DNA of 64,000 nucleotides from Pseudanabaena sp. FACHB-1998 (GTDB lineage: Bacteria; Cyanobacteriota; Cyanobacteriia; Pseudanabaenales; Pseudanabaenaceae). The notes under the pieces were generated by a model. It was not told the origin of the DNA. It did not search any database and saw only the letters and a list, made by a program, of their open reading frames with translations. Position 1 is the stretch's first letter, and every line of letters starts with the position of its first letter. Shown here piece after piece: positions 2,718 to 42,733 of the stretch. The stretch is from NCBI RefSeq assembly GCF_014696355.1, contig NZ_JACJQA010000004.1, positions 1 to 64,000 on the forward strand, in the 5' to 3' direction. The position numbers and the translations under genes were made by a program.

Positions 2718-4151
2718 ATGTTTGATGAAATCGCCGATAAATTTGAGGCGGCTTGGAAAAAGTTACGCGGACAGGACAAAATCTCTGACTCCAATATCCA
2801 AGGCGCGATTCGTGAGGTACGCAGGGCGCTATTAGAGGCAGATGTCAACTTACAAGTTGTCAAGGAATTTGTCGAAGAAATCTCCAAACAGGCTCAAGGC
2901 GCTGATGTGATCGCAGGTGTGCGCCCCGATCAGCAATTTATCAAGATCGTTTATGACGAATTGGTAAGGACGATGGGTGAGGCAAATGTGCCACTTGCTG
3001 AGGCTGCTAATGCGCCGACTGTAATTTTGATGGCGGGTTTGCAGGGTACGGGTAAAACGACGGCTACCGCCAAATTAGCCCTGCATTTACGCAAACTAGA
3101 GCGCACCGCGTTATTGGTAGCCACTGATGTATATCGTCCTGCGGCGATCGATCAGTTGATCACCCTTGGTAAACAAATCAATGTACCAGTCTTTGAAATG
3201 GGGACGGACGCTGACCCTGTGGAGATTGCCCGTCAAGGTTTGGCGAAGGCGAAGGAATTAGGCGTTAATACCGTGATCGTCGATACGGCAGGGCGCTTGC
3301 AGATCGATCGCGACATGATGGATGAACTCAAGCGCGTCAAGGATGCGATCAATCCCGATGAAGTGCTGCTGGTTGTCGATGCGATGACAGGGCAAGAGGC
3401 GGCGACTTTGACTCGAACTTTTCATGATGAGATTGGGGTTACGGGCGCAATCTTGACGAAGATGGATGGCGATACTCGTGGTGGTGCGGCGCTATCGGTG
3501 CGACAAATTTCGGGACAGCCGATTAAGTTTATCGGTGTCGGTGAAAAGGTTGAGGCACTGCAACCCTTCTATCCAGAACGCATGGCTTCGCGGATTTTGG
3601 GTATGGGCGACGTGCTGACGTTGGTGGAGAAAGCTCAAGAAGAGATTGACCTTACCGATGCCGCTAATCTCCAAGAAAAGATTCTGAGCGCTAAGTTCGA
3701 CTTTGACGACTTCCTGAAGAATACCCGCATGATGAAAAACATGGGTTCTTTCGGTGGAATGTTGAAGATGCTGCCAGGGATGAAAATCAATGATGCCCAA
3801 ATTCAAGAAGCTGAGAAGCAACTCAAGCGTTGTGAATCGATGATTTCTTCGATGACTAAACAGGAGCGCAAAGATCCCGATCTGATTTCTAAGAGTCCTA
3901 GCCGTAAACAACGAATTGCTAATGGGGCTGGTTATAAGCTTCAGGATGTGACTAAACTAGTTGCTGATTTCCAGAAGATGAGAGCTTTGATGCAGCAAAT
4001 GGGACAAGGCAAAATGCCCAACTTCCCAGGAATGCCCAACATGGGCGGCGGTGGATTCCCTGGAATGGGTGGCATGGGCAACCAAGCACCATCAGGCAAT
4101 CCCGTTTATGGCAAGAAGAAAAAAAAGAAAAAGGGATTTGGAGAACTATAG
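2718..4151 (+). CDS. ffh: Signal recognition particle protein Ffh (SRP54)
   Basis: This 477-residue GTPase binds SRP RNA and signal sequences and docks with FtsY to deliver ribosomes to the membrane. The N-domain helical bundle occupies about residues 1-90. The G-domain follows with the P-loop GLQGTGKTT at 107-115, the DTAGR motif and the TKMDGD segment. The M-domain covers roughly 320-440 and has the expected methionine-rich finger loop (residues such as MMKNMGSFGGMLKMLPGM). The C-terminus is a glycine/methionine-rich stretch ending in a lysine run. The next gene begins 4 bases after the stop, so the two are co-transcribed. Start and length are those of cyanobacterial Ffh. Confidence 0.97.
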   Translation: MFDEIADKFEAAWKKLRGQDKISDSNIQGAIREVRRALLEADVNLQVVKEFVEEISKQAQGADVIAGVRPDQQFIKIVYDELVRTMGEANVPLAEAANAPTVILMAGLQGTGKTTATAKLALHLRKLERTALLVATDVYRPAAIDQLITLGKQINVPVFEMGTDADPVEIARQGLAKAKELGVNTVIVDTAGRLQIDRDMMDELKRVKDAINPDEVLLVVDAMTGQEAATLTRTFHDEIGVTGAILTKMDGDTRGGAALSVRQISGQPIKFIGVGEKVEALQPFYPERMASRILGMGDVLTLVEKAQEEIDLTDAANLQEKILSAKFDFDDFLKNTRMMKNMGSFGGMLKMLPGMKINDAQIQEAEKQLKRCESMISSMTKQERKDPDLISKSPSRKQRIANGAGYKLQDVTKLVADFQKMRALMQQMGQGKMPNFPGMPNMGGGGFPGMGGMGNQAPSGNPVYGKKKKKKKGFGEL

Positions 4152-4155
4152 ATTT

Positions 4156-5028
4156 ATGCAACCAAAAATCATTATTCATGGCGGTGCGGGCAGCACTGTC
4201 GAAAGTAAAGGCGGCTATGAACCAGTCCGCAAATCTCTATTTGCAGTTTTGGAAACCGTTTATCCGATGCTGCTTAATGGCGCGAAGGCGATCGATGCTG
4301 TGGTCAAGGCTTGTCAAATGTTGGAAGATGATCCACGCTTTAATGCGGGGACTGGATCGGTTTTACAGTCTGATGGTCAGGTGCGGATGAGTGCCTCAAT
4401 TATGGACGGCGATCGCCAAAGTTTTAGTGGTGTCATCAATACCGCAAGAGTTAAAAATCCGATTGATCTCGCTAAACATTTGCAAACTAGTGACGATCGC
4501 GTTCTCTCTGATTATGGCTCGGCAGAACTCACTCGCGAACTGGGTATCCCGATTTACAATCCCCTCACCGATGAACGCCTTGCGGAATGGGTGGAGGAAC
4601 GCAAGACTAACTTCACTCGCAAAATGGCGGATGTGGCGATGGGAACAATCGGTGCGGTAGTTCTTGATCAATATGGCAGTATTTGTGTGGGAACTTCCAC
4701 AGGCGGACGAGGCTTTGAGCGCATCGGCAGAGTCAGTGACTCGGCAACCCCTGCGGGTAACTATGCCACCAAGTTTGCAGGCGTAAGCTGTACGGGTGTC
4801 GGTGAAGACATTCTCGATGAAGGCTTTGCTACCAGAGTGGTGGTGCGCGTTACTGATGGCATGACACTTCAGCAAGCGGTTGAAAAATCGATTAATGAGG
4901 CAAAAAGTCGCGATCGCGATTTTGGCGCAATTTGTCTGGATGCGACGGGGGCGATCTCATGGGGCAAAACCTGTCCCGTATTGTTCGCTGCATACCATGA
5001 TGGCGAAAAGATGCAAGATACACTTTAA
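4156..5028 (+). CDS. Isoaspartyl peptidase / plant-type L-asparaginase (Ntn hydrolase)
   Basis: The 290-residue product begins MQPKIIIHGGAG, with the HGGAG motif of the family. The autocleavage site is GTIGAVV, with nucleophilic Thr near residue 164; cleavage would give alpha and beta subunits. The segment GTSTGG after it lines the substrate pocket. The enzyme hydrolyses beta-aspartyl dipeptides and L-asparagine and serves in protein-damage turnover and nitrogen recovery. The open frame extends upstream into ffh, but the ATG at 4156, 4 bases after the ffh stop, gives the family N-terminus, so that start is chosen. The tight spacing implies co-transcription with ffh. Confidence 0.93.
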   Translation: MQPKIIIHGGAGSTVESKGGYEPVRKSLFAVLETVYPMLLNGAKAIDAVVKACQMLEDDPRFNAGTGSVLQSDGQVRMSASIMDGDRQSFSGVINTARVKNPIDLAKHLQTSDDRVLSDYGSAELTRELGIPIYNPLTDERLAEWVEERKTNFTRKMADVAMGTIGAVVLDQYGSICVGTSTGGRGFERIGRVSDSATPAGNYATKFAGVSCTGVGEDILDEGFATRVVVRVTDGMTLQQAVEKSINEAKSRDRDFGAICLDATGAISWGKTCPVLFAAYHDGEKMQDTL

Positions 5029-5096: not shown

Positions 5097-5173
5097 AGAT
5101 CCCCCTCAATCCCCCTTAAAAAGGGGAAAGAATTTACTTCTCCTCTCTTTTTAAGTAGGGATGAGGGGGATCT
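5097..5173. repeat. 77-bp imperfect inverted repeat, MITE-like
   Basis: The arms are AGATCCCCCTCAATCCC on the left and GGGATGAGGGGGATCT on the right, with an inner CCCCTTAAAAAGGGG hairpin. This GATCCCCCT...AGGGGGATC form is a dispersed repeat style often seen in cyanobacterial genomes. It lies in the gap after the isoaspartyl peptidase gene and could also fold as a transcript-end structure. Confidence 0.6.
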
Positions 5174-5243: not shown

Positions 5244-6257
5244 ATGAAAGATGTAATCGTGATCGGCGCAGGGATCGCAGGCTTGATCTGCGCCCAGCAG
5301 CTAAAACAAGCAGGGCTAGATGTCACCATTGTGGAAAAATCCGCAGGATTGGGCGGACGTATGGCAACTAGACGCTTGCAAGGAACTTGGGTCGATCATG
5401 GCGCACAGCTAATTTCCGTAAAAAGTGACAATTTCGGTAGGTTTATTCGCAAGTTAGAAGAAAAGCAAATTGTCAAAGAATGGACTCGCCATGTCTATCA
5501 ACTATCCGCGACAGGCTTATTACCTCCCAATGCTGACGATCGCCATACGCGCTACTGTTGTCCTCTAGGTATGACGGCGATCGCTAAATACCTCGCCAAT
5601 GACCTCCCCATTATTACCAATACGCGCATCGTTACCGTCAATCATAACGACATCAAATGGCAGCTAATCACCGATCGCCAAGAAATCCTTGAAACTAAAG
5701 CGATCGTTTCCACCATCCCCGCACCCCAATTTTTGCCATTATTTGAAGAGGTGTTAGCCTCAGCCCCCAGTTTCTTGCAAGCTTTGCAATCGGTGAAATT
5801 TGCGCCCAGTGTCACCATCATGGCTGGGTATAACCCCAGTAACTCAATTCCTAACGAGTGGCAAGCAATTAGATGCCTTGATGACCCCATCCTTGATTGG
5901 ATTAGTTACGACAGCAGCAAACACCCTGATAAAGCTCTGCAACCTGTATTTGTGCTGCAAAGTACGGCAGAATTCGCCAAACAATCGATGGAGGAGTCCG
6001 ATCTAGAAATTGCTGGTAAGCCTTTACTAAATCAAGTCGGTAGGCTCCTTGCTAAATGGCTAGCCAGTCCTGAGTGGTGGCAAGTTCACCGTTGGCGCTA
6101 TGCGATCGCCCAAGATTCTCTAGGTGTTTCTTGTCTATCCACCTCTATTCCCCTATCTCTAGTTTGTGCGGGTGATTGGTGTGCTGGCAAAAATATTGAA
6201 GCTGCCTATAATTCAGGGCTTGCCGCCGCCGAATCAGCGATCGAGTTACTAAAGTAA
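5244..6257 (+). CDS. FAD-dependent amine-oxidase/renalase-like oxidoreductase
   Basis: The 337-residue protein opens with a Rossmann dinucleotide-binding motif, VIGAGIAGLICAQQL, followed by EKSAGLGGRMATRR, the GG doublet and arginine typical of the amine-oxidase/renalase superfamily. The C-terminus has the second FAD contact in VCAGDWCAGKNIEAAYNSG. Renalase-like bacterial proteins oxidise dihydronicotinamide isomers; the substrate here cannot be set from sequence. No signal peptide is present, so it is cytoplasmic. The gene stands alone, flanked upstream by a MITE-like repeat and downstream by a strong hairpin. Confidence 0.85.
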   Translation: MKDVIVIGAGIAGLICAQQLKQAGLDVTIVEKSAGLGGRMATRRLQGTWVDHGAQLISVKSDNFGRFIRKLEEKQIVKEWTRHVYQLSATGLLPPNADDRHTRYCCPLGMTAIAKYLANDLPIITNTRIVTVNHNDIKWQLITDRQEILETKAIVSTIPAPQFLPLFEEVLASAPSFLQALQSVKFAPSVTIMAGYNPSNSIPNEWQAIRCLDDPILDWISYDSSKHPDKALQPVFVLQSTAEFAKQSMEESDLEIAGKPLLNQVGRLLAKWLASPEWWQVHRWRYAIAQDSLGVSCLSTSIPLSLVCAGDWCAGKNIEAAYNSGLAAAESAIELLK

Positions 6258-34759: not shown

Positions 34760-37700
34760 ATGCCTGACTCTCTCGCTGATGCTGCCAAAATCCAAGAAAA
34801 ACTGGCAATTCAATATTATAAATTGCCAGCACTAGAGCGCCAGATGATCCAAGTATTAGCGATCGCCTATGAGCCAACTAATCGCAGCGTTTTTTTTGAT
34901 TGCCTATTGCAGTATGGACTCAAGGATAAGGATGATCGGCATTTTACGGTAGGGGGATTAAAAGTCTATGTCGATCGCTTTTTAAAAATTGGGCTACTGA
35001 TACAGGAGCGATCGCAGGGTTTGCAATGCAATCCCTATTTGATCGATATTGCGATAAGAGATGCCGTGAAGGCGGGTAACTTCGAGAAAATTGTCAAAGC
35101 GATCGAAGCCCAACTTCCTGTGCCTAGCTACGGCAAGCTAGAATCCCGCAGTTTTAGAAGTGAATCCCAATTTGTGCGCGAGGTGAGAATTGGCATCTAT
35201 CGCCAAGATCTTACATTTGTCACAAAGCAATTTGAAGATTTTTATCGCTATGGTTATCCTCAGCAACGGATCACACTAGAAACCGTTTTACATCAAATCT
35301 GTACCAATCCCTTTGATGTTAATTGGTTTAAAAAATTAAAATCAGAGTTCTATGAGATGGCTCTCAGCACGATTTTAAATAGCAGTGTTATAAAGTTAAA
35401 GCCCAATCATGAGGCTTTTACGTTGCTCCAAAATGCCTTTCAGGAGCAGTTTCTCAATCCCACTTCAAAGAATTCCTCAGAGGATGCAGAACTTTCAAGC
35501 GATCGCTGCACCGATATGTTGCTTTTGATCTTGATCGAACAAAGCTTGTTAAGAGCAGATTTAGAAACGGCTCAGGCTGCCTATGATCACCTTGGGGAAG
35601 ATTATAAAGTGGCGGGGGATTCTTTCATTGCTTGGCTGAACTTTATTAAGGGAAATCGGGAATTAGCGATCGCCCAGTTCCGCCAATCCCTCAAGATGAT
35701 CAAAAAGGCAACGGGCAAGCGACAGATTTACTTCAGTGGCGAGGCTGGGTTATTTTTTATACTTGCCCTCATTCAAGAGGGAACTGCTGAGAGTATGCGC
35801 GAAGCGGAAAGCTATGCAGCTCTCATGACTAAGCAGACTAACCACTGGCTGCAAGTGACCTATAGCCGTTTTCAGAAGTTACTCAAGTTTCAACTGGGTG
35901 ATATTCCTCAAAAGGAACTGCTTAGTGCTGAGTATATTCATGATCACACCAATAGTCATACCCTAGAAGCTTTTTTTAGTGCGCTCTGTCTCTACTGGAT
36001 TAATCCCGAAAAAGCAAGAATTGAACTATCGCGGATTCTCGAACCTTTACTCAAGCAGTCCGTAGCCGCAGGTTATCACTGGTTATCAATGGAAGCTGCC
36101 GAATTACTAGGGCAAATCTCTCCTAATTCCATTCATCAAAAGCACGCTCAGAAATTACGTCAAGCCAATCAAATTCCGACAATCGTTAATTTAATTCGTC
36201 CACAGGAAACTTGGGAACTTAGCCTCAATGCCCTACTTAATCTCAGTAAGTCTCCACAGGAGCAAAGTAAGGCGGCAACTAACTCTCCGCAACGTTTAGT
36301 CTGGTTTATCACCTTTAATAAGGGAACCTGCACCATCCAACCAAGGGAGCAGAAGATTAATGCCAAAGGGGTGTGGAGTGCAGGACGAAATATTGCAGTC
36401 AAGCGCCTTAAGGATAGTGTCCATGAGTTTCCCTACATGACTCCGCAGGATATTATCGTTTGTTCTCATATCCAGATTTATTCCTTTCATGGCTATTATG
36501 GACAGAGCCAATATGAATTTGATGAAGATACCATCTGTGCTTTGATCGGACATCCCTTTGTGTTTTGGGAAGATTCGCCGACAACTCGCGTCGAGATTGT
36601 CAAGGGTGAGCCTGAGCTATTGGTGAAGACAGGAAGAGGCGATCGCCTAATTTTAGAATTTTCGCCCCAGCTAAAGGATGGACAGAATTTTGTCGTGGAA
36701 AAGGAAAGTCCCACTAGACTGAAGGTCACACTAGTCAATGAATCCCATCGCCGCATTACGGAAATTATTGGCAGAAAAAATCGCCTCGAGATTCCTGTAG
36801 CTGCTAAGGAGAGAGTGTTAGCGGCGATTCATGGTATTTCTTCGATTGTGACGGTACATTCCGATATTGGTGGAGTTGTGAGCAATGCCGAGGAAGTTCC
36901 ATCGGATAGCAAGCCCCATGTGCATATTTTGCCATCGGGTGATGGGCTGAAGGTGGCGGTGTTAGCTCGACCCTTTGCCAATGCGGGGGCTTACTATCGT
37001 CCGGGAACTGGTGGCGCGACCGTATTAGCCGAAATTGATGGAAAGCGCTTACAAGCAACGCGCAATTTAAAGGAAGAGAAAAAGCTCGCTAATGAGGCGA
37101 TCGCCGCTTGCCTTACCCTCGGCAACTATGAGGAAAATGATAGCGAATGGATCATTGATGATCCTGAGTTTTGCCTAGAGCTATTATTGGAACTGCAAGC
37201 ATTAGGCGATCGCATTGTCTTGGAATGGCCTGAAGGCGAAAAGATGCGAATCAGTCATCGGGCTGGGTTTGGCGATTTTAGGATGTCGATTAATCAGAGT
37301 CGCGATTGGTTTGCTGCTGAAGGTGAGTTACAGCTTGGCGATGACAAGGTGCTAGATATGCAGCGACTTCTAGAACTTCTGGATAAAACCCCTAGTCGAT
37401 TTATTCCCCTTGGCGATGGTCAGTTTTTGGCGCTTACGCAACAGTTTCGCAAGCGCCTCGATGAATTTCGCCGCCTCTCCGAAAAACATGGCAGTGGCAC
37501 TAGATTTCATCCCTTAGCCGCCTTAGCCCTTGAGGATTTTGTCGATGAAATTGGCGACCTCAAAGTTGATAAGCATTGGAAAGCCCATGTCAAAAAAATT
37601 AAGGAAATGCGAAACTTTGAGCCCCAATTTCCCACCACCTTGCAAGCGGACTTGCGTGATTATCAAATCGAAGGTTTCCAATGGTTAGCTAGATTGGCGC

Positions 37701-39028
37701 ATTGGGGAGTTGGGGCTTGCTTAGCCGATGACATGGGCTTGGGCAAAACCCTGCAATCTCTTGCTTTGATTCTTACCCGCGCCCCTCACGGTGCGACGCT
37801 GATTGTCGCGCCTACTTCCGTTTGTATGAACTGGATTGGTGAAGCTGCTAAGTTTGCGCCGACGTTAAATGTGATTGTCTTTGGTACAGGCGATCGCCAA
37901 AAAGTTCTAGACAATCTTCAGCCCTTTGATATGGTGATCTGTAGCTATGGCTTAATGCAGCAGGAGGAAGTAGGCGAAATGCTTGCTAAGGTGCAATGGC
38001 AAACGATTGTGCTGGATGAGGCACAGGCGATTAAGAATACTGCAACTAAGCGATCGCAGGCAGCGATGAATCTACAAAGTAGTTTCAAAATGATTACCAC
38101 GGGTACACCTATCGAAAATCATCTGGGTGAACTCTGGAATCTGTTCCGCTTTATTAATCCGGGGCTACTTGGTTCCCTTGATAACTTTAATACTAACTAT
38201 GCTAATCCCATCGAGCGATCGCAGGATCGAGAGGCTCGCAATCAACTTAAAAAGCTAATTCAGCCCTTTATTCTGCGGCGCACCAAAAATCAAGTTCTGC
38301 AAGAACTTCCATCACGTACTGAAGTGACTCTCCAAGTGGAACTTAGCAAAGAGGAACTTGCCTTTTATGAAGCGCTACGACGAGAGGCGATCGCTAAACT
38401 TACGGATACTCCCGCCAATGCAGGACAGAAGCACTTACAGGTTCTTGCGGAAATTATGAAACTGCGCCGTGCTTGCTGCAATACCAAGCTCGTCCGTCCC
38501 GATATCCCTCTGCCAAGCTCCAAGCTCCAGCTTTTTGGAGAAGTGGTCAATGAATTACTGGACAACAAACACAAGGCTTTAGTCTTTAGTCAATTTGTCG
38601 ATCATTTACATATCATTCGCGATTATCTCGATTCTCAAAAAATTAGCTATCAATATCTCGATGGCAGTACTCCCGCTAAGGAGCGCAAAAAACGAGTGGA
38701 AGCTTTTCAAGCAGGGGAAGGCGATGTCTTTTTGATCAGCCTCAAAGCTGGCGGTACGGGTTTAAATCTGACGGCGGCTGACTATGTCATCCACATGGAC
38801 CCTTGGTGGAATCCTGCGGTCGAAGATCAAGCCAGCGATCGCGCCCATCGCATCGGTCAAAAACGCCCTGTGACGATCTATCGCCTCGTAGCTAAGGGAA
38901 CGATCGAAGAGAAAATTGTCGATCTACACCATCACAAGCGCGATCTTGCAGATAGTTTGCTAGAGGGTACGGATATGAGTGGCAAGGTCACCACCGATGC
39001 CTTGCTACAATTGATCAACGAAATTTAA
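34760..39028 (+). CDS. SNF2-family helicase, long cyanobacterial form
   Basis: The 1422-residue protein is a Swi2/Snf2 ATPase. The N-terminal roughly 950 residues are alpha-helical with no clear catalytic motif; a beta-rich stretch lies near 520-690. The helicase core starts about residue 965 with DYQIEGFQWLARL, motif I ADDMGLGKTLQS, motif II DEAQ (in VLDEAQAIKN), TGTPIENHLGELW, and the C-terminal lobe with VFSQFVDHL, GGTGLNLTAADYV and QASDRAHRIGQ. These proteins remodel or translocate on double-stranded DNA. The gene lies beside the DGR but is not a known DGR component, so the link is doubtful. Reading frame is intact. Confidence 0.93.
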   Translation: MPDSLADAAKIQEKLAIQYYKLPALERQMIQVLAIAYEPTNRSVFFDCLLQYGLKDKDDRHFTVGGLKVYVDRFLKIGLLIQERSQGLQCNPYLIDIAIRDAVKAGNFEKIVKAIEAQLPVPSYGKLESRSFRSESQFVREVRIGIYRQDLTFVTKQFEDFYRYGYPQQRITLETVLHQICTNPFDVNWFKKLKSEFYEMALSTILNSSVIKLKPNHEAFTLLQNAFQEQFLNPTSKNSSEDAELSSDRCTDMLLLILIEQSLLRADLETAQAAYDHLGEDYKVAGDSFIAWLNFIKGNRELAIAQFRQSLKMIKKATGKRQIYFSGEAGLFFILALIQEGTAESMREAESYAALMTKQTNHWLQVTYSRFQKLLKFQLGDIPQKELLSAEYIHDHTNSHTLEAFFSALCLYWINPEKARIELSRILEPLLKQSVAAGYHWLSMEAAELLGQISPNSIHQKHAQKLRQANQIPTIVNLIRPQETWELSLNALLNLSKSPQEQSKAATNSPQRLVWFITFNKGTCTIQPREQKINAKGVWSAGRNIAVKRLKDSVHEFPYMTPQDIIVCSHIQIYSFHGYYGQSQYEFDEDTICALIGHPFVFWEDSPTTRVEIVKGEPELLVKTGRGDRLILEFSPQLKDGQNFVVEKESPTRLKVTLVNESHRRITEIIGRKNRLEIPVAAKERVLAAIHGISSIVTVHSDIGGVVSNAEEVPSDSKPHVHILPSGDGLKVAVLARPFANAGAYYRPGTGGATVLAEIDGKRLQATRNLKEEKKLANEAIAACLTLGNYEENDSEWIIDDPEFCLELLLELQALGDRIVLEWPEGEKMRISHRAGFGDFRMSINQSRDWFAAEGELQLGDDKVLDMQRLLELLDKTPSRFIPLGDGQFLALTQQFRKRLDEFRRLSEKHGSGTRFHPLAALALEDFVDEIGDLKVDKHWKAHVKKIKEMRNFEPQFPTTLQADLRDYQIEGFQWLARLAHWGVGACLADDMGLGKTLQSLALILTRAPHGATLIVAPTSVCMNWIGEAAKFAPTLNVIVFGTGDRQKVLDNLQPFDMVICSYGLMQQEEVGEMLAKVQWQTIVLDEAQAIKNTATKRSQAAMNLQSSFKMITTGTPIENHLGELWNLFRFINPGLLGSLDNFNTNYANPIERSQDREARNQLKKLIQPFILRRTKNQVLQELPSRTEVTLQVELSKEELAFYEALRREAIAKLTDTPANAGQKHLQVLAEIMKLRRACCNTKLVRPDIPLPSSKLQLFGEVVNELLDNKHKALVFSQFVDHLHIIRDYLDSQKISYQYLDGSTPAKERKKRVEAFQAGEGDVFLISLKAGGTGLNLTAADYVIHMDPWWNPAVEDQASDRAHRIGQKRPVTIYRLVAKGTIEEKIVDLHHHKRDLADSLLEGTDMSGKVTTDALLQLINEI

Positions 39029-39127
39029 CCCCCCCATAATAGAAAGCCGACATTCCGCTAAGCCACTTAAGGGGTTTAGCGGTGCTGGAATTTTGATAGA
39101 TTAGCGATCGCTACATCAGACAATTAA

Positions 39128-39163
39128 AAACATAGGAGCAATTCATGAATTGCTCCTATGTTT
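39128..39163. terminator. Perfect palindrome at the RM gene 3' end
   Basis: A 36-base perfect palindrome centred at 39145/39146 (ACATAGGAGCAATTC arm) overlaps the last codons of the minus-strand RM gene and has T/A tails. It lies between convergent genes. Confidence 0.75.
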
Positions 39164-42100
39164 CAGGGTTTTTCTTAACTCGCTTTTTCTGCTCAACTTT
39201 GAGTAATGGCGCACTTAGGGCTTCATAGAGGTTAAATAAATACTCGATGCGGTTTAGTTCGCTAACGAAGGGTTGGGGACGGTAACAAAGGTCTACAGCT
39301 TTGTCTAGGATTTGATGTACTTTTACCAAGTCGGGCGGCATGGTGAGAGGATCGTAAAGATCGGCGAGGCTACTATCGGGATATTTTACTCTTGTGTCTA
39401 ATACCGCTTGCGCGGCAGTTTCCACTTTTTGCTTTTGTTTGTCGCTGAAGTTTTCAGGGAATGGATAGTTGTTGTAAACGATTGTATTGGAATAGCGGAA
39501 ATCACTCTTTAATCTTCCACATACATATCTCACCCAAGTCATGTGCATTTCAGAGGTCAAAATACCGAAAATATAAAGGTTAGCGTCAGGAACGCAACTA
39601 CAGCTATTCGCAACAATATTATCTTTACCAAACAAGCTAATTGGAATATATTTCCTGTTTTCAGAAGAGTGAAGTGGAAGAATTATATAGTCGCTATTAG
39701 GTTGTCTAATCTCAGTAAAAAGAGTTGGAAATTGCGCCCATTGGACTGTGGAGCTTTTAGTGCTTGCCAGACGAAATTTTTTAACAGCTTCTACTTTGTT
39801 CGTTAATAGAGGTAAACTTTTAAATTCATTAGGTTGTATATCTTTAAGCCAGAAACACCAACGTTTTTTATTGTTTAAAAATTCATCTGCGGATATAAAA
39901 GGTTTAACGAATTTTTCTCCGTAGGGTTCTTGTTGGACATATTCGGTTTTCTCTGAGTCAGTCATTAAAAGATTGCCATCATCTGTAGGTTTACTTCCAT
40001 AAACCATTGCAGGAATATTACAAATTGGCTTTGTTCTTTTCAAAATAACTAAATCATTCCCTCCCACTAAATAGGGATTAATATTTTTGGCTTTCTGCTC
40101 CGTTGGCTCTCCTTTGATATCTGCATAATCAAAAATTCTTTTATTTTCAACTTCCTGTAAACCAAATCCAATAATTACACAATGCACAGCCGCATTACCT
40201 TTTGCCTCATTACTCCAGCTAAAAGTCCGATGGGCAAAATGAATTTTAATCTTGTATTTATTGTAAAGCTCTTGCCAGAGAATCCCTACCTGTTCACCTT
40301 GAGAAATAGAACTTGTACTCACAAAAGCACATTTAACCTCCCCTAGCCCCTCCTTGGAAGGAGGGGAACAAGAGTTTAGATATTGGGCAGCTTTCAAGTA
40401 CCAAGCACAAACATAGTCCAATACACCAGCCCCATTCACCCCAGCAAAAATCATCTCCATATCCGACTTCTGCTCAGCGCTTTGCAAATGCTTACCCACA
40501 AAAGGGGGATTTCCTAAAATATAGTCAAATACCACCCCCTGCCCCTCCTTGAAAGGAGGGGAGTAAGACTTCTTATCTTGTCCTCCTCCTAACTCCTGTC
40601 CTCCTCCTAACTCTTGTTCCCCTCCTTTTAAGCAGGGGCTAGGGGAGGTTCTTAAATGCTCTCTAACATCCTCTAACACTCCCTCTAAATTTTCAAAAAT
40701 TAAATTATTCGCATAACGCAACACTGTAATTCCCACACTCCATAAAAATTTATCCCTAACCGCATCATATTCCCTACCCTCCTGCGTAAAATGCTGACCA
40801 CCATCCAACTCGATCGCCAAATTAGCACTTGGGCAAAAGAAATCTAAAATGTAATGACCAATTGAATGCTGTCTCCTAAACTTAAACCCATCCAACTGCT
40901 TACCTTGCAAAGCTTTCCATAAAGTCACCTCCGCAGGAGTCGCATTATTCCGTAACTCTCGCCTAAACTCTTTCTTGCTAGCAAGATTACTAATCGCCTT
41001 ATAAGGAACTTGTTCTCCTAACTCTTGTCCCCCTCCTAACTCTTGTCCCCCTCCTTGCAAGGAGGGGCTAGGGGAGGTTCTTAATCTTTCTCCTTGCACA
41101 GAAAAATTAGAAGAGGTTTTAGATACTCTCGGAACCACCCCTAGCCCCTCCTTTGAAGGAGGGGAACAAAATCGCCAATCAATCCGCAACGAATTGCCAT
41201 GCACAATCCTCGCCGCTTTCTTCAATGGCAAGCGTACAAAATATTGTCCAAACTCATTACTCACCTTCACATTCATCTGATGATCGATCAACCACATTGC
41301 CACCTCGGCAACCCGCACCGCAAACTCATCATACTCAATCCCCGCAAACTGATCCACATCCACCTGAATAATTGAGCTAATATCTGTCACCAACTGCCCA
41401 TTCTTATTCAACTCCAACAAAATCACAATCTCTAAATCTCGTAACTCTCGATAAGTGATAATCAAGAAATTACCGCAACCGCAAGCAGGATCGAGAAAAT
41501 GCAAATCTGCAATCTTTTGATGTAACTCCTCTAGCTTATTGCGATTACCCTTCGCTTTCTCAAACTCAACATACAAATCATCCAAAAAAAGCGGTCTAAT
41601 CAACTTTTGAATATTCTTTTCAGAAGTATAATGCGCCCCCAAATTACGCCGTTCCGTCTGATTCATCACCGCCTGAAACATCGACCCAAAAATTGCAGGA
41701 GAAATCAACGACCAGTTAAAAGCACAAGCTTCAAGCAACTGCAATCGCATATCCTTATCAAATTCCGCACTGGGTAAAGGTTCCTCAAATAACTTTCCAT
41801 TAATATAAGGGAACTGCGCTCGATTCTCATCCAAATTTTTTAAACGCTTCTCATTTGGCGTATTCAAAACTCGAAAGATTGAATCAAGATGCATTGCCAA
41901 ATCACTGCCATCTTCCTTTGTATGCAGATCGATATATTCCCAAAAAATACCATTTTTATCAAAAATCCCCGTATCATCCGCAAACAGACAAAACAACAAC
42001 CGCACCAGATAAACTTCCAAGTCATGCCCCGTATAGCCAATCTCCTTGAGGCGATCGTGCAGTTTCCCCATCAACTCCGCCGCCTCAATATTGACAGGTG

Positions 42101-42560
42101 CTTCATCCTTATAAATACGCTTCTGATAACCAGCGATCGCCCCAAATAGTTCAACTCGATTAACAAAATCCTTTAGCTCAAACTCCGTAGTCTCATCGGT
42201 ATCCAAATCATAGAGCCTGAATTTCTGAAAATCCGACACCAAAATATATTTCGGTAACTCATGCTCTTTTAAATTGGGAAAATAATCCTTAGCCTGTTGT
42301 GTCGCTTTATCTAAGTCCTTGCCCCTAGACTTATGCTCCACCAAAATCATCCCTTTCCACAGCAAATCGATAAAACCTTGCTTGTTATCTGCCTTTTTAA
42401 TCGGTAGCTCAAAACTCCCCACCCGCCGCCGTGAAATGCCAAACACATTAAAAAATTCATTCCAAAAAGATTGCGATTCCGACTTCTCTGAAGTCTCACT
42501 TTCCCACTCCTTAGAAAAGGCGATCGCCCTTTGCTTAATCTCATTCCAACTTAGCGGCAT
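39156..42560 (-). CDS. MmeI-like type IIL restriction-modification protein interrupted by a DUF559 insertion
   Basis: The 1134-residue protein has an N-terminal PD-(D/E)xK nuclease (FIDLLWKG, then VEHKSRG with D65, E75 and K77), a helical linker, and an adenine methyltransferase with motif I DPACGCGNFLI near 355-365 and motif IV GNPPF near 680. A target-recognition and C-terminal part follow. MmeI-type enzymes cut DNA at a distance and methylate one strand. Between the methyltransferase motifs lies an in-frame 213-residue insertion with a DUF559 nuclease (FKFRRQHSIGHYILDF; IELDGGQHF). Without it the length would be about 920, the family norm. A second short in-frame repeat lies near 40340. 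Activity may be lost or altered. Confidence 0.85.
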   Translation of the reverse strand: MPLSWNEIKQRAIAFSKEWESETSEKSESQSFWNEFFNVFGISRRRVGSFELPIKKADNKQGFIDLLWKGMILVEHKSRGKDLDKATQQAKDYFPNLKEHELPKYILVSDFQKFRLYDLDTDETTEFELKDFVNRVELFGAIAGYQKRIYKDEAPVNIEAAELMGKLHDRLKEIGYTGHDLEVYLVRLLFCLFADDTGIFDKNGIFWEYIDLHTKEDGSDLAMHLDSIFRVLNTPNEKRLKNLDENRAQFPYINGKLFEEPLPSAEFDKDMRLQLLEACAFNWSLISPAIFGSMFQAVMNQTERRNLGAHYTSEKNIQKLIRPLFLDDLYVEFEKAKGNRNKLEELHQKIADLHFLDPACGCGNFLIITYRELRDLEIVILLELNKNGQLVTDISSIIQVDVDQFAGIEYDEFAVRVAEVAMWLIDHQMNVKVSNEFGQYFVRLPLKKAARIVHGNSLRIDWRFCSPPSKEGLGVVPRVSKTSSNFSVQGERLRTSPSPSLQGGGQELGGGQELGEQVPYKAISNLASKKEFRRELRNNATPAEVTLWKALQGKQLDGFKFRRQHSIGHYILDFFCPSANLAIELDGGQHFTQEGREYDAVRDKFLWSVGITVLRYANNLIFENLEGVLEDVREHLRTSPSPCLKGGEQELGGGQELGGGQDKKSYSPPFKEGQGVVFDYILGNPPFVGKHLQSAEQKSDMEMIFAGVNGAGVLDYVCAWYLKAAQYLNSCSPPSKEGLGEVKCAFVSTSSISQGEQVGILWQELYNKYKIKIHFAHRTFSWSNEAKGNAAVHCVIIGFGLQEVENKRIFDYADIKGEPTEQKAKNINPYLVGGNDLVILKRTKPICNIPAMVYGSKPTDDGNLLMTDSEKTEYVQQEPYGEKFVKPFISADEFLNNKKRWCFWLKDIQPNEFKSLPLLTNKVEAVKKFRLASTKSSTVQWAQFPTLFTEIRQPNSDYIILPLHSSENRKYIPISLFGKDNIVANSCSCVPDANLYIFGILTSEMHMTWVRYVCGRLKSDFRYSNTIVYNNYPFPENFSDKQKQKVETAAQAVLDTRVKYPDSSLADLYDPLTMPPDLVKVHQILDKAVDLCYRPQPFVSELNRIEYLFNLYEALSAPLLKVEQKKRVKKNPET
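40532..41172 (-). mobile_element. In-frame DUF559 endonuclease insertion bounded by palindromic repeats
   Basis: The insertion splits RIDW from DYILGNPPF of the methyltransferase. The DUF559 core spans about 40650-41010. Both sides carry the G/C palindrome family CCCCTCCTT-AAGGAGGGG (copies near 40540, 40615, 41045 and 41140; a fifth outside at 40340), each translatable. Free-standing DUF559 genes have a similar sequence, so this looks like a repeat-carried gene that jumped into the methyltransferase gene without breaking the frame. Confidence 0.7.
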
Positions 42561-42659
42561 ATTTGGAAACGCTACGACATAATTTTAGGTAATATTTATA
42601 CTACCATTTGTTTTCTAAAGTTACCTCCTTGGGCGCAGTCACCATTTTGCTAAAACTAG

Positions 42660-42683
42660 AACAAGGGGCTTAAGCCCCTTGTT
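42660..42683. repeat. Short perfect palindrome upstream of the RM gene
   Basis: The 24-base palindrome has arm AACAAGGGGCTT and no loop. It lies between the RM start and the M16 protease terminator. Confidence 0.55.
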
Positions 42684-42733
42684 TTTATCAAATGTTCCAA
42701 AGTGAGATGTTCTCTAAGACAAACGCAGTTTGA

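Follow-up and report, generated by a model that had tools for sequence, protein, structure and literature searches.

We analysed a window of 64,000 nucleotides from Pseudanabaena sp. FACHB-1998 (assembly GCF_014696355.1, contig NZ_JACJQA010000004.1, positions 1 to 64,000 of the forward strand), in which a gene for an MmeI-type restriction-methyltransferase carries an in-frame insert of ~213 residues, consisting of a DUF559 nuclease between linkers derived from palindromes and lying just N-terminal of catalytic motif IV of the methyltransferase (MTase). We consider it probable that this insert is a compact homing-like mobile element, in which a DUF559 nuclease gene is combined with palindromic ends of intrastrand-triplex type, and that it entered a surface loop of MmeI in frame. 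More tentatively, and with chances that we place slightly below even, DUF559 nucleases may be the mobility enzymes of intrastrand-triplex repeats in general, forming phylum-spanning minimal elements (~460 bp when autonomous, ~100 bp when non-autonomous) that would recognise a hairpin/triplex end, with one branch specialised for in-frame life in restriction-modification (R-M) genes, i.e. in host defence.

The open reading frame (ORF) of the host gene has no break over its 1134 amino acids, and PADLOC calls it REase_MTase_IIG (1207.8 bits). Pfam recognises MmeI_N (residues 11-173), MmeI_hel (179-258), DUF559 (529-636; E 6e-33), MmeI_TRD (834-1036; target recognition domain, TRD), and MmeI_C (1039-1119), while the MmeI_Mtase match is broken in two by the insert, its second part covering residues 679-811. 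The N-terminal, helical, MTase, TRD, and C-terminal domains therefore follow one another in the order of the MmeI-type (Type IIG) enzymes; FIDLLWKGMILVEHK, DPACGCGNF, and NPPF are present, and the host nuclease motif D..ExK and MTase motifs I and IV are undamaged. The crystal chain of MmeI (5HR4) aligns in two blocks, residues 1-467 with amino acids 1-463 and residues 477-914 with amino acids 680-1130, and uninserted relatives read RIDW-ESVVAKEKLN-FILGNPPF at the insert site. Because the 5HR4 blocks meet at 467/477 and the empty alleles have ESVVAKEKLN there, a loop of ~10 residues (MmeI residues 468-476) was replaced by the insert. The gene thus encodes a complete MmeI-type restriction-methyltransferase carrying a nested DUF559 nuclease, which confirms what a preliminary description of this DNA had proposed when it placed ~213 residues with DUF559 and repeat-derived linkers before NPPF.

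The linkers are encoded by palindromes of the type CCCCTCCTTnnAAGGAGGGG, of which the MmeI gene holds five copies (E1 to E5 in the table below) and the rest of the 4.8-Mb genome none at up to two mismatches, with a reversed-pattern control also giving none. The DUF559 domain is flanked on both sides by copies (91%) of a 70-nt direct repeat. E5, which is unaccompanied by a nuclease and lies in frame ~80 codons downstream, was found in 8/8 filled alleles and in no empty allele, and a third site, at which the window gene has a plain PD dipeptide, is occupied by an in-frame palindrome pair in six of eight filled relatives. Two other origins were considered and rejected: the Pfam scan contained no Hint or intein model and the insert ends are palindrome-coded peptides, which disfavours an intein, and as to a group I or II intron, 39100-42700 gave neither an Rfam match above gathering nor an intron model up to an E value of 1, and the frame is open.

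Table. Host gene, insert, and palindromic ends (positions in the window).
Feature	Position	Strand	Basis
MmeI-type restriction-methyltransferase gene with in-frame DUF559 insert, 1134 amino acids	39156..42560	-	Pfam, PADLOC, 5HR4 alignment
Host part 1, amino acids 1-463: MmeI N-terminal nuclease, helical spacer, MTase motif I	41172..42560	-	aligned to 5HR4 1-467
Insert in place of loop ESVVAKEKLN of the empty alleles	40530..41171	-	filled/empty alignment
Palindromic end E1: hairpin CCCCTCCTTCAAAGGAGGGG + CTA + third tract GGGGTGGTT, perfect triplex code	41133..41164	-	
70-nt direct repeat, left copy, 91% identical to right copy 40586-40655	41015..41084	-	
Palindromic end E2, inverted relative to E1: hairpin + CTA + GGGGAGGTT	41048..41079	+	
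DUF559 domain (Vsr/EDxHD-like PD-(D/E)XK nuclease)	40653..40976	-	Pfam, conserved residues, fold
70-nt direct repeat, right copy	40586..40655	-	
Palindromic end E3, one arm mismatch, + CTA + GGGGAGGTT	40619..40650	+	
Palindromic end E4: hairpin + CAG + GGGGTGGTA	40530..40561	-	
Host part 2, from amino acid 678: motif IV NPPF, TRD, C-terminal domain	39156..40529	-	aligned to 5HR4 477-914
Palindrome-only in-frame insertion E5 (NSCSPPSKEGLGEVKC) replacing a short loop	40335..40366	-	filled/empty alignment
Third insertion site, unoccupied in the window gene (KY-PD-SSLADL)	39375..39380	-	filled/empty alignment

The preliminary description had proposed an alignment to the MmeI family and a search for empty-site homologues, and had expected that removal of the insert would restore the usual length near 920; the empty homologues that we found measure 923-937 amino acids, are 80-90% identical across amino acids 1-464, and come from the same genus as well as from other organisms. 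Roughly half of the close homologues have no insert, so that the domain order is not an ancient architecture common to them all. Allowing one mismatch, the palindrome was detected in exactly 8 of 38 related genomes, namely those with a filled MmeI gene, the other 30 giving no match; among the matches listed, all copies in the eight filled genomes lie inside the MmeI gene. In a tree of 1.1 kb of upstream host sequence, filled alleles are interspersed among empty ones on strongly supported branches, and a single filled clade is rejected (AU test, p 8.2e-5; delta lnL 106.6), whereas in a tree of the 450 nt downstream of the insert all filled alleles form one clade (support 99/99). Therefore, the insert was transferred together with a downstream block into several MmeI backbones. 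Such a pattern is what homing with co-conversion gives, and the mosaic alleles are an indirect hint at a possible homing function of DUF559, but ordinary recombination can give the same. We considered it somewhat unlikely that a single insertion spread among MmeI alleles by homologous recombination alone, as TRDs do, with no homing activity: TRDs are indeed swapped among filled and empty alleles too, and every MmeI-embedded copy sits in one and the same gene, but the transferred block begins sharply at the insert, which was carried into at least four backbones, and nucleases of the same family have moved to further genes and loci, although for the MmeI gene itself recombination may suffice. 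We note that the TRD of the window gene derives from an allele like the empty gene of another family (L082, 91% identical there); because this TRD resembles an empty allele and the block with the insert agrees with that of filled relatives, the two were exchanged separately.

The DUF559 domain matches the PF04480 profile and has the Vsr fold and the conserved acidic and histidine residues of the DUF559/Vsr-EDxHD group, its invariant residues all being kept: E (in TPAE), D (LDFFC), E and D (IELDG), H (GQH), and D (EYD). Structure comparison gave Z scores of 15.5 with 3HRL, 11.1 with the homing endonuclease I-Bth0305I, and 10.1 with Vsr. The ratio of nonsynonymous to synonymous substitutions (dN/dS) is 0.05-0.08 for DUF559 and 0.04-0.05 for the neighbouring MTase but 0.37 for the linker; both proteins are under strong purifying selection that preserves their function, the linker being far less constrained, and the view of a tolerated insertion, one of three options in the preliminary description, was also right. 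In Caulobacter, a DUF559 protein (VsrA) provokes an SOS response if the cytosine methyltransferase that is its partner is missing (PMC12907096), and therefore the family can damage DNA in living cells. This response and the Vsr fold could also speak for a Vsr-like mismatch-repair nuclease that serves methyltransferases and lies close to repeats only incidentally. We regard this explanation as very improbable, since it leaves the palindromes on both sides unexplained. Moreover, the MTases that host DUF559 here belong to N6-adenine-type families, which create no T:G mismatch and hence pose no such repair problem.

Each palindrome consists of a pyrimidine arm and a purine arm that form a hairpin, and 3 nt further on stands a third tract, which repeats the purine arm in mirror order (with A answered by T or A), as in AGGGGGAGGG-ttg-GGGTGGGGGT; in some families the third tract is preceded instead by a short linker resembling a hairpin. 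A third tract is present in 248 of 295 palindromes near DUF559, and among distinct families the tract at +3 nt covaries with the arm, 317 of 379 positions fitting as compared with 209 (standard deviation 9.5) after re-dealing of the tracts. Read from the sequences, this code corresponds to that of an antiparallel purine-motif triplex (G:G, A:T/A). The three-tract layout is that of the published intrastrand triplex motif, 5'-CCCTCNCCCN3-6GGGNGAGGGN3GGGNGAGGG, for which triplex formation in vitro was reported, which is tied to genome instability, and near which no transposase or integrase was ever found (PMC4666352). The ends E1-E5 have the features of this motif class (class II purine motif), the triplex itself being predicted from their code. 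Folding energies calculated for single-stranded DNA are by themselves no more than moderately low (z about -1.9 to -2.4), the program used modelling no triplexes. A G-quadruplex may be possible for some families, while those with only two long G runs (GGGGGG-ATTT type) appear to fit the triplex code better. The idea that such palindromes are unusually free of stops, and in that sense made for coding, was dropped because 3.08 of their six frames are open compared with 3.16 after shuffling, which is the level set by composition.

To place the insert in a wider context, we used 138 distinct DUF559 loci from about 20 phyla, a contig scan having yielded 80 loci of this type across about 20 phyla. 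Within 150 nt of these 138 domains, palindromes with one pyrimidine and one purine arm reach 5.52/kb as opposed to about 0.1/kb at 1.5-4 kb, an enrichment of more than 50-fold, and they stand on both sides of DUF559 at 80/125 loci (64%) and at 1/2760 control positions. In the same genomes, any palindrome at all was found at 45 of 53 DUF559 loci but at none of the 28 HNH, 25 Uma2, and 21 RAYT control loci; in other phyla the figure for DUF559 is 66/72. Most DUF559 genes are standalone, yet have the same palindromes, and in cyanobacteria, where 32 of 38 genomes searched contain DUF559, frequently in frames of 500-1800 amino acids, palindrome-coded peptides flank the protein on both sides. DUF559 distance correlates with palindrome-arm distance (r 0.22; r 0.14 between phyla only; none of 2000 permutations as high), in a permutation test that removes gene relatedness incompletely. 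At least five copies of one common palindrome family were counted in 44/69 DUF559-bearing and 16/76 other genomes of 145 cyanobacteria (odds ratio 6.6; 3.3 among genomes of at least 3.5 Mb). A perfect dependence of palindromes on DUF559 at the genome level was thus not found, and in these 16 genomes without a strong DUF559 loss, other families, or another helper may be at work.

This raises the question of whether the triplex palindromes are moved by another agent, such as replication slippage or an unidentified transposase, with DUF559 as cargo or as a structure-specific host nuclease that gathers nearby. The palindromes in some DUF559-free genomes, the link between intrastrand triplex motifs and genome instability (PMC4666352), and the precedent of a separate enzyme in RAYT/REPIN all lend themselves to this alternative; because DUF559 lies between ends at close to two-thirds of loci in about 20 phyla, its phylogeny follows palindrome sequence, and the RAYT loci of the same genomes are without such palindromes, we nevertheless hold it to be unlikely. 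RAYT itself was rejected as the driver, 30 Y1 (PF01797) loci being without such palindromes.

Several observations bear on mobility. In Acidobacterium (593 palindromes) and Hymenobacter (75), palindromes form inverted pairs of ~110-120 bp with the third tracts inward, and a DUF559 gene lies between those same inverted ends in elements of 463-498 bp. Of note, in Acidobacterium (G248; L112, L217), which has a very heavy element load, the stretch separating the purine arm from the third tract itself resembles a hairpin (GCCGAGCGAAGCGAGGC). Standalone DUF559 genes that are 82-88% identical occur in unrelated flanks, two of them in one genome. In Escherichia coli K-12, the only DUF559 gene found is ycjD (L263:8218-8761, corresponding to 1351204-1351760), which lies 168 bp from published triplex motif no. 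9, is carried by 3365 of 5426 E. coli genomes, and encodes a protein whose C-terminus, SPSP, falls at a degenerate palindrome. The ycjD-less E. coli genomes that we examined have an RND efflux operon at that place and so provide no clean empty site, and a longer alx-sstT allele of E. coli B proved not to be a DUF559 element, as it gave no DUF559 match. The inverted pair between hrpB and mrcB is missing in some E. coli genomes, which are 102 bp shorter there, and a single palindrome is left in another. We conclude that the association of DUF559 with palindromes, and its mobility, are well supported.

At least 13 host sites carry DUF559 in frame, and almost all of them are in R-M genes: MmeI at three positions (MTase loop, helical spacer, and after the TRD), HsdR (in cyanobacteria and Bacteroidota), HsdM, Type ISP, Eco57I/DrmMI-like, HmaB, and other Type IIG enzymes; a SpoU methylase also follows DUF559 within one frame. 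A rare non-defence host is prmA (ribosomal protein L11 methyltransferase) in an Acinetobacter metagenome-assembled genome (L121:3290-4669), where DUF559 and palindrome-like peptides are in frame. The second DUF559 of the window genome (contig C50; L003:1037-4594) lies in frame in a DrmMI/Eco57I-like DNA methyltransferase before motif I and is flanked by another palindrome family, of the CCCTCNCCC triplex-motif type; the same gene has a later palindrome-only insertion (LAPLSPIGRGAGGEGL), and a transposase of insertion sequence type overlaps its 3' end. A tree of DUF559 places the window type together with standalone genes of Bacteroidota and Chlorobiota; other copies embedded in R-M genes fall in separate clades that mix host sites, and therefore the MmeI insertion is one of several independent invasions of R-M genes.

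These data also bear on a newly fused nuclease with an R-M function, another option in the preliminary description, in which DUF559 would be a beneficial accessory domain gained by fusion and the linkers flexible tethers only. Such a role would suit the overwhelming share of R-M genes among in-frame hosts, the conservation of DUF559, which is as strong as that of the MTase, and the one cyanobacterial DUF559 clade that consists of R-M-embedded copies. However, MmeI already has its own nuclease, insertion positions vary even within the MmeI family, the domain is absent from about half of the close alleles, most DUF559 genes are standalone with the same palindromes, and non-R-M hosts exist (PrmA); thus, we do not favour this explanation and deem it distinctly unlikely. 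By contrast, the third option, a homing-like mobile gene, is best supported by the empty alleles, the moved standalone copies, the many host sites, the homing-endonuclease fold, and the repeated transfer among MmeI backbones. The preliminary description stands in these parts, but it overlooked two points: the linkers are palindromes of intrastrand-triplex type, and DUF559 accompanies such palindromes in many phyla.

As for how such a homing-like element might move, DUF559 would be the catalyst: the protein would recognise the palindromic ends by structure (hairpin/triplex), by sequence, or by both, and would nick or cut at or near them or at the empty target, after which repair from an element-bearing copy would insert the element. 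Inverted pairs of ends of ~100 bp would then be non-autonomous derivatives moved in trans. The element would leave host enzyme and nuclease both intact and would spread among MmeI alleles along with part of the host sequence downstream of it; R-M genes could be preferred hosts because they themselves travel between genomes and because large multidomain enzymes accept loop insertions. Some observations count against this account. No clear target-site duplication was seen at MmeI site 3 or at E. coli hrpB-mrcB, the few sites examined, and insertions displace a few host residues. Third tracts face inward (131) and outward (113) in similar numbers, and the mirror tract could reflect a G-quadruplex or a protein-binding site instead. 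Cyanobacteria without a strong DUF559 (16/76) keep at least five palindromes of one family, transfer among MmeI alleles could be ordinary recombination, and binding and cutting of palindromes by DUF559 are inferred rather than drawn from biochemistry.

The proposed element shares traits with several known systems. Like the intrastrand triplex motifs (TM/PIT; Holder et al. 2015, PMC4666352), it has a three-tract architecture, a 3-nt second loop, and inverted pairs, and both are abundant in cyanobacteria and Enterobacteria and polymorphic among strains, with the CCCTCNCCC type flanking the second DUF559 of the window genome; unlike the published motifs, for which no mobility gene was described nearby (PMC4666352), these palindromes have DUF559 between or beside them across phyla, also inside coding genes. 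EDxHD/Vsr-type homing endonucleases (I-Bth0305I, PDB 3R3P) are alike in catalytic fold and sequence (E 1.8e-4, Z 11.1), in being small single-domain nucleases, and in having empty and filled alleles with co-transferred flanking sequence, but here neither intron nor intein is involved, the element is retained in the mature protein, and it has palindromic ends and short inverted-pair derivatives. RAYT/REP-REPIN systems likewise have a single-domain nuclease gene between inverted palindromes and ~100-bp inverted pairs across the genome; DUF559, however, is a PD-(D/E)XK rather than an HUH (Y1) nuclease, and its ends have a mirrored purine tract and no GTAG/CGTC tag. Rickettsial palindromic elements (PMC3733652) are also palindromes in frame in functional protein genes, but no partner nuclease was described for them and their sequence is unrelated as far as known, a distinction made by description only. 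In the open-access literature, we found no link between DUF559 and triplex repeats, although an earlier notice in subscription papers is possible. If correct, our proposal would give a function to DUF559, a nuclease family 'of unknown function' in many bacterial phyla, and would explain by what route PIT/TM repeats, which have been known for 25 years and have been studied in E. coli, pass from genome to genome. It would also describe a type of selfish DNA whose end is a structure and not a fixed sequence, and a parasite concealed in defence genes in a form that the enzyme tolerates. The ycjD copy in E. coli K-12 makes the idea testable at once.

Elsewhere in the window, a large SNF2-type helicase gene (34760-39028) is convergent with the MmeI gene, and a perfect inverted repeat between the two (39128-39163) resembles a two-way terminator. 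A solitary palindrome of another family (TCCCCCTT..AAGGGGAA) lies at 5110-5128, between the ORFs 4051-5028 and 5244-6257; on the minus strand it is followed by TTG-AGGGGGATC and looks like a lone triplex-type end.

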